A DNA stretch of 39,076 nucleotides from Candidatus Fermentibacterota bacterium (lineage in GTDB: Bacteria; JAFGKV01). The notes beneath the pieces are model-generated. The model saw only the letters and a list, made by a program, of their open reading frames with translations, had not been told where the DNA came from and did not search any database. This document shows positions 33,208-37,654 of this stretch, piece by piece. Position numbers and translations under genes: made by a program. The stretch spans positions 1-39,076 of the forward strand of contig JAUXFG010000014.1 of NCBI GenBank assembly GCA_030620115.1, read 5' to 3'. Numbering within the stretch: the first letter of the stretch is position 1; the number at the start of each line of letters is the position of its first letter.

Positions 33208-33316
33208 TAGACATGTAACCTGCCTCTCTCCCAGTCCATCCTCATAGTCGAAGAGGATCATCTCGGCCATTGCGGTGGGTGGGTGGTGAGAGGCATGAAC
33301 CCACAGGGAGGTGTGT

Positions 33317-34189
33317 GTGAGCCGAGTAGCAAAGCTGCTATTGCCGGCAGTGATCATCCTTGGCGCATGTTCAGGCCCAAGCGCCGGCCCGGATGCCATC
33401 GTACAGGACCTTGCGAAATCCCTCGATGAGGGTCATCCTGAAGCACTATGGGATGCATTACCCGCGAGCTATCAGACCGACATCAACGAGGTTATCGGTC
33501 TATTTGCCGCCAACATGGACAAGGATGTCTACAATAAGGGCTTCCAAGTGGCAGACAAGCTTGTCTCGGTCCTCAAGAACAAGAAGCAGTTCATCCTCGG
33601 CCATCCTATGATTGCGGGGATGAGCCAGGGGAGACTGAACGACGAGACATACGACGCCGTCATCTCAACACTCGAAACATACACAACAAGTGAGATTTCA
33701 ACACTTGACGGCATGAAGAATCTCAACGTGAGGTCGTTCCTCACCAAGACAGGCGGCAATGCCGCCAAAGACATTAAGACCCTCTCGGAGCTGAGCAATA
33801 GTGAAGCGGTTCCCTTCGAGAAGTTGCAGGATATAGAAGTCAATCTGGTGAGCCACTCCGGTGAAAAAGCAACCATTTCAGTGAAGGCTGGCGATGAGAC
33901 TGAGGAAGTCGAGCTGGTGATGGTGGAGGGCAAATGGGTGCCGGCCAAGATGGCCAGCGGCTGGAAGGATGGCGTGGCAGAAGCAAAAACCAAGATGACC
34001 GAGCTCTCCTCGCAGATGTCCGGTGAGCAAAAGACACAAGCGTTAATGAGCATGGATATGGCGCTGGCGGCATTAGGTCAGTTTGAGGCCGCTTCAACGC
34101 AAGAAGAGTTCAACACCGCCCTCGGCGGCATCATGGGTATGGCCATGGGCGGCATGGGCGGCGGTGCACAGCCTCCCATGGGCGAATAG
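33317..34189 (+). CDS. Lipoprotein of unknown function with Met/Gly-rich tail
   Basis: With GTG at 33317, five bases after a GGGAGG site, the protein has 290 residues. A GTG six bases earlier is too close to that site. The signal MSRVAKLLLPAVIILGAC gives acylated Cys18. The mature part is mostly helical and charged (DALPASYQTDINEVIGLFAANMDKD, VEVEL-type strands, GKWVPAKMASGWKDG). It ends in a flexible tail MGMAMGGMGGGAQPPMGE. No family is recognised. It is followed by a clear terminator, so it is probably a single-gene unit unless read-through reaches the membrane genes downstream. Confidence 0.8.
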   Translation: MSRVAKLLLPAVIILGACSGPSAGPDAIVQDLAKSLDEGHPEALWDALPASYQTDINEVIGLFAANMDKDVYNKGFQVADKLVSVLKNKKQFILGHPMIAGMSQGRLNDETYDAVISTLETYTTSEISTLDGMKNLNVRSFLTKTGGNAAKDIKTLSELSNSEAVPFEKLQDIEVNLVSHSGEKATISVKAGDETEEVELVMVEGKWVPAKMASGWKDGVAEAKTKMTELSSQMSGEQKTQALMSMDMALAALGQFEAASTQEEFNTALGGIMGMAMGGMGGGAQPPMGE

Positions 34190-34558: not shown

Positions 34559-35239
34559 ATGAAGAAGACCATTCCTCTCCTCATCACGTTTGTGGTCGGT
34601 CTCGCACTGATCCTCGCCATATTCATTCCCCCCGAGCCTTTTCATACCATGAATCGCGAATTCAGCGTCTACTTCGACATCATCGCCGTGTTTGCGTTCA
34701 TCCTTGGAGGCGGCAACCTCATACGCGTTCATGGGAACAAAATCTCCCGGAAGAAAAAGGACTACAAGTACAGCTTCGTGACCTTGCTTGGCTTCTTTGT
34801 CACACTCTTTGTGGGCCTCCTGAAGATCGGGGGTCCTCCCGGAATCCAAGGTGAGGTCATGGCTTCCGGCTCCTGGTTCCTGTTCATCTTCAACGCCATC
34901 CTGACGCCGCTCACTGCCACCATGTTCGCTCTTCTCGCCTTCTATGTGGCCTCGGCCTCATTCAGGGCATTCAGGGCAAAAACCACGGAAGCAACTATCC
35001 TACTGCTCGCAGGCTTCATCATCCTCCTCGGGCGCACATTCTTTGGCTACTACATCACTAGTTGGCTGCCCGATTCGCTCTCGTTCTTGGAGATTCCGAA
35101 CCTCGCAAATTGGATTATGGCCTGGCCCAATACGGCAGGACAGCGCGCCATCGTCATCGGCATCTCGCTGGGAGTCGCGGCCACGAGTCTCCGTATCATA
35201 CTGGGAATCGAACGAAGCTATCTCGGGTCAGGGGAATAG
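34559..35239 (+). CDS. Polytopic membrane protein, unrecognised (module gene 1)
   Basis: This 226-residue protein has about six hydrophobic helices (near 5-24, 38-55, 72-91, 104-133, 145-166 and 196-216). A strongly basic loop HGNKISRKKKDYKYS (58-72) probably faces the cytosol, and a conserved-looking SWLPDSLSFLEIPNLANWIMAWP segment (168-190) lies between helices 5 and 6. No catalytic motif is seen. It is followed after 6 bases by the next gene and is part of a three-gene set. Function is unknown. Start choice is moderate: AGAAG lies close and AAAGGG farther upstream. Confidence 0.8.
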   Translation: MKKTIPLLITFVVGLALILAIFIPPEPFHTMNREFSVYFDIIAVFAFILGGGNLIRVHGNKISRKKKDYKYSFVTLLGFFVTLFVGLLKIGGPPGIQGEVMASGSWFLFIFNAILTPLTATMFALLAFYVASASFRAFRAKTTEATILLLAGFIILLGRTFFGYYITSWLPDSLSFLEIPNLANWIMAWPNTAGQRAIVIGISLGVAATSLRIILGIERSYLGSGE

Positions 35240-35245
35240 AAAAAG

Positions 35246-36100
35246 ATGCCATTGCTTGAACGCCTGCAGACCCTCGACCGTCGGATCATCTTCCTATTCA
35301 TTGGGCTTTCCGTTCTTGTCCCCCTTCTCTTTCCGATCACCTTCCCCGAGCATCCAAGCCCTATCGTGACGGCGATATATGACGGTATAGAAAGCCTCCC
35401 CGAGAGATCCATTGTGCTCATGCCCTTTGATTATGATCCTTCCACCGCACCTGAACTGGATCCCATGGCTACGTCATTGATGAGGCACTGCATGACGCGG
35501 AATCTGCGGGTCTGCACCATGGCGCTCTGGCCGGAAGGCCAGGGAATGGCCAATAACATCATGAGCATTGTAGTAGAGCGGGAGTTCCCCGACAAGGTGT
35601 ACGGCGAGGATTACGTGAATCTGGGATACAAGGCCGGCGCACAGGGCCTCATCAATACACTCCTCTTGAGCATGAGATCAATGTACACCACCGATGCCGC
35701 AGGCACCCCTGTCGACGAAATCCCGCTGATGAAGAACATCCACACACTCCGTGATTTTGCTTTTATCATGAATCTCTCTGCCGGTAGACCGGGCACCAAG
35801 GAGTGGATACAATTTGCCGGCGACCCGGGTGATATCCCGATAGCGTCAGGCTCCACCGCGGTGCAGGCACCCTTGATGTACCCATACTATCCTTCACAAA
35901 TGGTAGGGATGATGGGTGGTCTCAAGGGTGCGGCGGAGTATGAGGCTTTGCTTGTGAAGGGATACCCCCAGTTCAAGAATTCCAGTGCAGTGGCCACTGG
36001 GCTCATGGCCCCACAAGCATTTGCACACCTTGTAATCATGGTCTTTATCATTATCGGCAACATTATCTTCTTTGTTGAGCGGAGGCAGAAGGACCGATGA
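35246..36100 (+). CDS. Membrane-anchored protein with large extracytoplasmic domain (module gene 2)
   Basis: This 284-residue protein has one membrane helix at each end (about 14-33 and 257-277) and a domain of about 220 residues between them, predicted outside the cytoplasm. The domain begins YDGIESLPERSIVLMPFDYDP, has ALWPEGQGM and YVNLGYKAGAQG segments, and closes with YPYYPSQMVGMMGGLKGAAEYEALL, a glycine-rich stretch next to aromatic residues. Alternating strands and helices suggest an alpha/beta fold. I cannot assign a family or activity. It overlaps the next gene as ATGA, which supports a joint complex. Confidence 0.8.
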   Translation: MPLLERLQTLDRRIIFLFIGLSVLVPLLFPITFPEHPSPIVTAIYDGIESLPERSIVLMPFDYDPSTAPELDPMATSLMRHCMTRNLRVCTMALWPEGQGMANNIMSIVVEREFPDKVYGEDYVNLGYKAGAQGLINTLLLSMRSMYTTDAAGTPVDEIPLMKNIHTLRDFAFIMNLSAGRPGTKEWIQFAGDPGDIPIASGSTAVQAPLMYPYYPSQMVGMMGGLKGAAEYEALLVKGYPQFKNSSAVATGLMAPQAFAHLVIMVFIIIGNIIFFVERRQKDR

Positions 36101-36783
36101 ATCTGAGCCCCTTGGAGCTGACCATCAACGGCATCCTTACGCTCATGATTTTGAGCTTTCTCTACAAAGACAACCCATTCTACAAGTTTGCCGAGCACCT
36201 CTTTGTGGGTGTTTCCGCGGCCTACTGGATGGTCCAAGGCGTATGGCAGACCTTGATGCCGAATCTGATTGCCAGGATCTTTCCCGGGGCGGTTTCTTCC
36301 TTTCTTCCCGATGCAGTGGGAAAAAGCCCTGACTACTACTTCCTCATTCCGGCGGCGTTTGGCCTTCTCCTTCTCACCAGGTTGCTGCCCAAGGGGAACT
36401 GGCTTTCCCGATGGGCACTGGCCTTTGTGGTGGGATACGCAGCCGGCACCAATTTCGTGCGGTATCTCCAATCCGACTTCGTGGCACAGATCCGGAGCAC
36501 CATGGTGCCCCTTGTCGTGCTCAAGGACTCGGGCGGTCTTGATCTGGGCCAGAGCTTCTCTCACCTCGTGCTCATTGTGGGAGTACTGAGCGGCCTCGTT
36601 TACTTCTTCTTTTCCAAGGAGCACAAGGGAACCACCGGCCGCATCTCCCGTGTGGGCATATGGATACTGATGGTTACCTTTGGGGCCTCATTCGGGTATA
36701 CCGTCATGGCGCGGATCTCCCTTCTTCTCGGCAGAATGCAGTCCCTCAGGGATTGGGTCGAGCATCTTATCGGCCTTTTTTGA
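36097..36783 (+). CDS. Polytopic membrane protein, unrecognised (module gene 3)
   Basis: This 228-residue protein has about six hydrophobic helices (near 8-22, 33-50, 80-97, 104-120, 153-171 and 185-205). A short motif FLYKDNPFYKFAEHLFVGVSAAYW (21-44) mixes charge with aromatic residues and is the most distinctive part. The start shares four bases with the stop of gene 2. No family is recognised. With genes 1 and 2 it would make a membrane complex having about 14 helices and one large outer domain. Confidence 0.8.
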   Translation: MNLSPLELTINGILTLMILSFLYKDNPFYKFAEHLFVGVSAAYWMVQGVWQTLMPNLIARIFPGAVSSFLPDAVGKSPDYYFLIPAAFGLLLLTRLLPKGNWLSRWALAFVVGYAAGTNFVRYLQSDFVAQIRSTMVPLVVLKDSGGLDLGQSFSHLVLIVGVLSGLVYFFFSKEHKGTTGRISRVGIWILMVTFGASFGYTVMARISLLLGRMQSLRDWVEHLIGLF

Positions 36784-36865: not shown

Positions 36866-37654
36866 ATGCGAGCCCTAAGACCACCGGGGTTGTTCGGCAC
36901 CGCTTGGCTGACTGTGCGGTATCGCTCGCCATTGGCCGGAAGAGGAAAAACCCTTGTTCCGCACTTCCTGCTCCTTCTTGCGCCAGTGCTTCTCTCCGCG
37001 GCATACCTACTCAAAAACCCAGATGCATCAGGCTCCCAAATCTTCTGGACCATGGCCCGCTCCTATTATCTTCAATTCGCCATCGGCGTGGTCATGCTCG
37101 GCGTGGGGCTCGGCGGCTTTCCAATGGAGGAGTCCGCGGGCACCATGATGTTCCTGCTCTCCAAGCCGAGCTCCCGCACAGGCGTGCTACTGGGGAGGAT
37201 CGTTTCGGCCGGCATTATGGGGATCTTGCTCGTGCTGCTCAGCGTCACCGCATCAGGGCTCCTGCTGAAAGTGGCAGTTCCCGACATCCTCCGCGCATGG
37301 CCCGGGCTTGCGGCTGCGACGCTGTTCTACGGAACGGTCTTCACGGTCATCCCTCTGCTCACGAAACGCGCCACCGCCATCGGCCTCGTGTACGTGCTCA
37401 TATGGGAAGGGTTCATCTCCATGGTTCCGGGTGCCATCAACAGTCTCACGGCATCGCGATATCTGCGGGCTTTGCTCCCTGGAGAGGGTCTGATCTCCCC
37501 TGCGATGTTTCTCTCACACTGGTCAACACCATCCCACGGCGTCGCGTTGACAAGGCTGGGATTGACGTTATGTGTCGTCATAGGAACAGGAATCATGGTC
37601 ATGCGTTCAAAGGAGTACGCCATCGCCCAGAGCCGAGCCGCCGGGGAAGTATGA
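36866..37654 (+). CDS. ABC-2-like permease without adjacent ATPase
   Basis: This 262-residue protein has about six helices. Between helices 2 and 3 it has GGFPMEESAGTMMFLLSKPSSRTGVLLGRI, which is like the E-E-x-x-G-T-x-x-x-L-x-x-x-P-x-S-R motif of ABC-2 permeases of the ABC-type multidrug/lipid exporters. A nucleotide-binding partner would be expected beside it, but none is in the window. It starts 82 bases after the three-gene membrane set, and no good ribosome site is visible before the ATG. It may be part of the same transcript. Substrate is unknown. Confidence 0.72.
   Translation: MRALRPPGLFGTAWLTVRYRSPLAGRGKTLVPHFLLLLAPVLLSAAYLLKNPDASGSQIFWTMARSYYLQFAIGVVMLGVGLGGFPMEESAGTMMFLLSKPSSRTGVLLGRIVSAGIMGILLVLLSVTASGLLLKVAVPDILRAWPGLAAATLFYGTVFTVIPLLTKRATAIGLVYVLIWEGFISMVPGAINSLTASRYLRALLPGEGLISPAMFLSHWSTPSHGVALTRLGLTLCVVIGTGIMVMRSKEYAIAQSRAAGEV

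Follow-up and report, generated by a model that had tools for sequence, protein, structure and literature searches.

Evidence for a conserved seven-gene system of DUF6754 membrane modules and a GlmL-like ASKHA protein in bacteria and one archaeal class

A 39,076-nucleotide contig of a Candidatus Fermentibacterota bacterium (assembly GCA_030620115.1, contig JAUXFG010000014.1; hereafter the window) carries three tightly packed genes for membrane proteins, raising the question of whether they encode a complex and what it might do. The original prediction, made from the window alone, read them as a stable, undescribed membrane complex with a large outer domain. All three genes lie on the + strand: A (34559–35239; 226 aa), B (35246–36100; 284 aa), and C (36097–36783; 228 aa). 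The open reading frames and spacings are as claimed, with 6 bases between A and B and an ATGA overlap between B and C. Hydropathy analysis likewise agreed with the predicted helices: six in A; two in B, on either side of a 233-residue loop; and six in C, four of them strong and two weaker, the latter read by eye. Positive charges are found at both the N-terminus and the C-terminus of B, so the domain between its helices is predicted to lie outside, as had been proposed. Sequence alignments show the motif S-A-x-R-A-F-R-A-R in the A family, conserved Asp/Glu positions and a C-terminal G-L-x-G-A-A-E-Y-E motif in the B family, and the motifs Y-K-D-N-P-F-Y-K and F-G-A-x-F-G-x-T-V-M-x-R in the C family.

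Set against the orthologous locus L028 of a sister genome, A, B, and C gave dN/dS values of 0.07, 0.12, and 0.10, respectively, which are rough because dS is saturated at ~2. A, B, and C are real, intact, and coupled genes under strong purifying selection. None of the three matched a family in Pfam, NCBIfam, PADLOC, or PHROG, in keeping with the earlier statement that they hold no recognizable motif, and profile searches with them gave no known complex. The B domain was modeled as alternating strands and helices in a Rossmann-like arrangement (pLDDT 69, pTM 0.69, from a very shallow alignment). For this model a Foldseek search gave no confident structural relative (best E 3e-3, TM-scores ~0.3). 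Assigning a function from this generic fold was rejected on the strength of those scores.

Loci fetched from other genomes show that the triad normally has a fourth member. This gene, D, usually lies just upstream of A and encodes a membrane protein with the Pfam domain DUF6754 (PF20539; 345–398 bits in Pfam scans, cut-off 27). The order D-A-B-C is strict at 98 of the 109 B genes in the fetched loci, whole-module tandem repeats included, and spacing is close in 300 of 305 adjacent gene pairs of the modules. D consists of a variable outer N-terminal part, one helix, the highly conserved DUF6754 domain, and a closing helix; the outer part is often fibronectin type III (FN3)-like, and 1 to 719 residues precede the cytosolic domain. 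From hydropathy and charge, the DUF6754 domain of D is predicted to be cytosolic and the B domain to lie outside. By eye, B and D resemble each other in the predicted order of strands and helices, but the D model (pLDDT 47) is of too low quality to interpret, the alignments used for structure prediction being very shallow (4 and 3 rows). Profile comparison of the two domains was not significant (E 0.12–0.16), and the idea that B and D are outside and inside copies of one domain was rejected. Three loci of the window's own family (L053:6266–9585, L027, and L034) hold a divergent module subtype whose DUF6754 match scores low; at two of them, L053 and L027, the subtype is preceded by an SH3-domain protein (tested in L053) and followed by a large histidine kinase. 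Another locus, L166 (G123:C38), has one D-A-B-C module followed by three more B genes without D, A, or C of their own.

This order is broken in the window and in its orthologue L028, both of which lack D. Its usual place is occupied by a gene for a lipoprotein-like protein (33311–34189, + strand) present only in these two loci, and the triad is followed by a gene for an ABC-2 type permease (36866–37654, + strand; PF12679, 30.9 bits, cut-off 27.2) that had been put forward as a possible further member. Between the window and L028, the lipoprotein-like protein is 51% identical (dN/dS 0.20) and the permease 44% (dN/dS 0.33), both ratios being rough since dS is saturated; the two flanking genes are under looser constraint than A, B, and C. 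Among the other fetched modules, the permease adjoins A-B-C only at L028, which makes it a neighbor rather than a subunit and removes it from the proposed complex. Both flanking proteins were rejected as subunits, since they are found only within the window's own family.

Examination of the window's own genome (G000) points to where its D has gone. A, B, and C are each present there in seven copies, always together and with every A adjoining B, and there are seven D genes for the seven triads, all scoring above the DUF6754 cut-off. One of these D genes stands alone on contig C207 (L068:7646–8821). Over 61 loci, the tree distances of this orphan D correlated with those of the window B with a Spearman coefficient of 0.856, a higher value than for any of the other six D genes (0.77 for the second best, at most 0.34 for the rest). 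The loci closest to it on the D tree are also mostly those nearest the window B on the B tree. Correlation and shared tree neighbors make it very probable that this D, relocated to C207, is the missing fourth subunit of the triad. In two of the family's three genomes, the orphan D adjoins two large proteins with no Pfam match, membrane-like by eye (L068:3122–7566, L070:9097–12509).

A second gene set, c6-c5-c4, recurs directly before D in many genomes, and a contiguous c6-c5-c4-D-A-B-C arrangement is found in 21 loci. c6 is a small protein. c5 is a GlmL-like, ASKHA-type ATP-binding protein (PF13941, MutL; 400 bits) that carries all three ATP-site motifs (ATDCGSTTTKAIL, GVDIGGATTDVFSVF, and GSGGVLSHAP); with DCGSTTTK, DIGGATTD, and GSGG in its ASKHA core, it is predicted to bind ATP. 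c4 contains a barrel-sandwich hybrid stretch and a C-terminal SH3/KOW-like end. Like A, B, and C, neither c4 nor c6 matched a named family, and a sequence search of solved structures with B, c4, and c5 gave nothing useful. In the window's genome, c6-c5-c4 (L073:5717–9167, contig C105) is unlinked from the modules and lies in the order gcvT-gcvH-gcvPA-gcvPB-lplA-c6-c5-c4, with the glycine cleavage neighbors at L073:466–5766 and a histidine kinase also neighboring c4. The window triad thus has its D and its c6-c5-c4 set within the same genome.

Several variants and neighbors of the second set were seen. On contig C160 of the same genome (L074:4635–7601), c5 and c4 are fused in one 989-aa protein. 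A c4-like stretch also occurs in frames of ~960–1050 aa in G001, G002, G083, G117, G242, G254, G353, and G381, fusion being shown for L074 alone, and such fusions or frames occur in addition to separate c5 and c4 genes. A pairing of the fusion with the divergent D subtype was rejected, since the fusion is also found in families without that subtype. In 11 loci an eighth gene recurs directly before c6, encoding a small membrane protein (~120–265 aa) with a weak bacterial PH-domain match (L084:3770–4258, L085:2900–3322, L119:4102–4632, L121:2900–3370, L122, L123, L124, L126, L132, L117, and L169). Downstream of the operon and on its strand, L116, L117, L121, L122, L124, and L130 encode a TonB-dependent receptor-like outer membrane protein of ~900–950 aa. 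Glycine cleavage genes lie beside c6-c5-c4 or the whole operon at L073, near L116, L121, L122, L124, L130, L133, L136, and L139.

The two sets also go together across genomes. Among 386 bacterial genomes, B was present in 103, D in 102, and c4 in 99, with all three in 97 and any of them in 106. The phi coefficients were 0.967 for B-D, 0.947 for B-c4, and 0.967 for D-c4, vs. 0.27 for the control gcvPB. The sampled genomes share ancestry, so p-values for these associations are not to be read literally, but the gap to the control is large. The sets co-occur even though c4 often lies apart from the module. Positive genomes span 88 of 326 genera and make up ~27% of the sampled bacterial genomes; the fetched loci include Zixibacteria (L001) and Culexarchaeia (L002). 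Seven modules and a single c5-c4 pair are encoded by the archaeon Candidatus Culexarchaeum nevadense (L002, G386), and B was found in 5 of 151 genomes sampled around Culexarchaeum. Gene order and co-occurrence in the 386 genomes make it almost certain that a conserved seven-gene system (D-A-B-C plus c6-c5-c4) exists. The original prediction of a coupled module survives, since searches linked none of the three proteins to a known complex and the set recurs, strongly conserved, in other bacteria and in one archaeal class; its outline has changed, the module comprising four genes rather than three and belonging to a larger system. An ABC exporter could account for the permease that does follow the triad, but this permease is absent from modules outside the window's own family and the module holds no ATP-binding cassette gene. 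Gene order and co-occurrence across bacteria and an archaeon refute a chance grouping of membrane genes and also speak against the exporter, leaving either explanation with negligible probability.

The neighbors of c6-c5-c4 in the window's genome fit another proposal, a membrane-bound complex for cofactor or enzyme maturation tied to glycine cleavage and lipoate, with c5 as a GlmL-type reactivase. gcvPB lies near the set in nine loci and lipoate ligase in five, and gcvPB is present in 99 of 103 system-bearing genomes vs. 199 of 283 others. At the genome level, however, the association is weak, as the phi for gcvPB indicates, and most loci lack such neighbors. No target enzyme for a reactivase is found nearby, and it is hard to see what an outer domain would contribute to cofactor loading. 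This proposal appears quite improbable.

Copy numbers differ between the two sets. c4 is a full-length single copy in every positive genome except G314, and at least two B genes are present in 50 of the 103 B-positive genomes, in a survey where B counts per genome are capped near six. In the window's genome, seven ancient paralogous modules stand beside a single full c6-c5-c4 set. In the B tree, six of its seven B genes are nearest a sister-genome copy and the seventh is nearest another family, none being closest to another copy from the same genome, while the archaeal B copies form one group. Because B paralogues are nearest the copies of other genomes and c4 remains single, the modules must have diversified long ago and been kept apart, with a single engine throughout. 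In the 21 loci with single complete sets, mean pairwise identity was 62% for c5, 58% for the cytosolic part of D, and 49% for c4; the same type of comparison over the 21 complete loci gave 43% for C, 42% for A, 38% for B, and 31% for c6. The most conserved parts belong to the predicted cytosolic face and the outer domain is less conserved, as expected if a common engine meets different outer specificities; c6, the least conserved part, departs from this pattern. A defense system or mobile element was rejected, since no PADLOC model matched A, B, C, D, c4, c5, or c6, D had no plasmid match, and B had no viral-contig match.

The best mechanism we can offer, largely inferred and given a probability of roughly 0.35, is an ATP-driven transport machine with one shared cytosolic engine and several substrate-specific membrane modules, as suggested by the shared-engine ratio, the twelve predicted helices of A and C, and the two-sided anatomy. 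The seven proteins would form one machine, in which A and C would provide the path through the membrane and cargo would be selected outside by B together with the outer region of D. c5 would dock on the DUF6754 domain of D, with c4 as the adaptor linking c5 to D, and ATP hydrolysis by c5 would drive a conformational cycle by which cargo crosses the membrane, in either direction. One engine would be shared among modules of differing specificity, in an ECF-like logic carried out by unrelated proteins. Several observations count against transport: A and C match no cargo, channel, or transport family; the contact of c5 and c4 with D is presumed; c6 is poorly conserved; the module neighbors are mostly unrelated housekeeping genes that indicate no single substrate; and the D model is unreadable and B is without a confident Foldseek relative. 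For ASKHA proteins of the GlmL type, moreover, work as a reactivase or chaperone is more familiar than a role as a transport motor.

The presence of conserved domains both outside and inside, and of several paralogues that share a cytosolic partner, would also suit a sensor or signaling complex. In such a complex, a ligand outside would be bound by B and by the outer part of D, the signal would be relayed by A and C, and DUF6754 would regulate c5 in the cytosol. Histidine kinases or other signaling proteins adjoin L053, L027, L026, L040, and the c4 of the window's genome, but these neighbors vary and most modules have none. The twelve helices exceed what signaling needs and c5 is not a known signaling output, making this role unlikely. 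We give about as little weight to a scaffold for envelope assembly or anchoring, a membrane platform organizing a surface layer or secretion site in which c5 would resemble the actin-like assembly ATPases. The FN3-like outer part of D with its very variable length, the several modules per cell, the ASKHA fold, and the occurrence in bacteria and an archaeon are consistent with such a platform; c5, however, resembles GlmL and not FtsA, MreB, or PilM, some lineages, the archaeal L002 among them, have a D without a long outer part, and no envelope genes recur as neighbors except that for the TonB-dependent receptor-like protein (six loci).

Returning to the transport machine, it is possible, if on balance doubtful, that the system represents a new class of ATP-driven transmembrane machine of bacteria and an archaeal class, with one GlmL-like ASKHA engine serving up to ~7 modules, each with a Rossmann-like domain outside and DUF6754 inside. 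It appears to be new as a described system, although its function may prove to be a familiar kind of transport. Although it is common in the sampled bacteria, reaches one archaeal class, and is often multi-copy, five of its seven proteins belong to no named family, and the other two are a protein with a domain of unknown function (D) and a distant GlmL relative (c5). DUF6754 is absent from all 14 well-known control genomes, which would explain how the system escaped study. A search of an open-access library (subscription journals lying outside it) gave no paper naming DUF6754 or PF20539 and no description of the system, and a paper on Culexarchaeia (PMC9723716) makes no mention of MutL, glutamate mutase, or DUF. 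With its parts listed, its ratio of engine to modules defined, and an orphan subunit at hand, what the system does can be tested directly.

Comparison with known systems places D and c5 nearest to described families. D is a full member of DUF6754, to which Pfam assigns no function, and curated models gave no match for its partners A, B, C, and c4. c5 is homologous over the whole ASKHA core to GlmL/MutL, the accessory protein of glutamate mutase (PF13941, TIGR01319, NF040745). It reaches about half of the cut-off for the GlmL equivalog NF040745 (224 and 237 bits vs. 475), falls below that of the TIGR01319 subfamily (171 and 184 bits vs. 204), and, unlike GlmL, has a C-terminal extension. Its context also differs, since c5 sits with a membrane module and not in a recognized mutase operon: no glutamate mutase subunits lie beside it in the window's genome, where its neighbors are glycine cleavage genes, lplA, c6, c4, and a histidine kinase, and elsewhere its neighbors are c4, c6, and D-A-B-C. 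A stretch of c4 resembles the RnfC/NqrA barrel-sandwich hybrid (PF13375, PF05896; 24.8 bits, cut-off 25.6, and 29.6 bits in the fused form). The remainder of c4 is unlike RnfC: the Zixibacteria c4 (L001) had no NCBIfam match, the fused form scored 19 bits against an RnfC cut-off of 246, the c4 alignment has no invariant Cys for Fe-S clusters, and no other Rnf subunit was seen nearby. A, B, C, and D matched no ATP-binding cassette or transport family, which sets them apart from ABC transporters. In ECF vitamin transporters, a shared energizing unit serves several membrane modules. The system described here has no ABC ATPases and no sequence relation to these transporters; the analogy is one of logic, several membrane modules being combined with one shared cytosolic unit.
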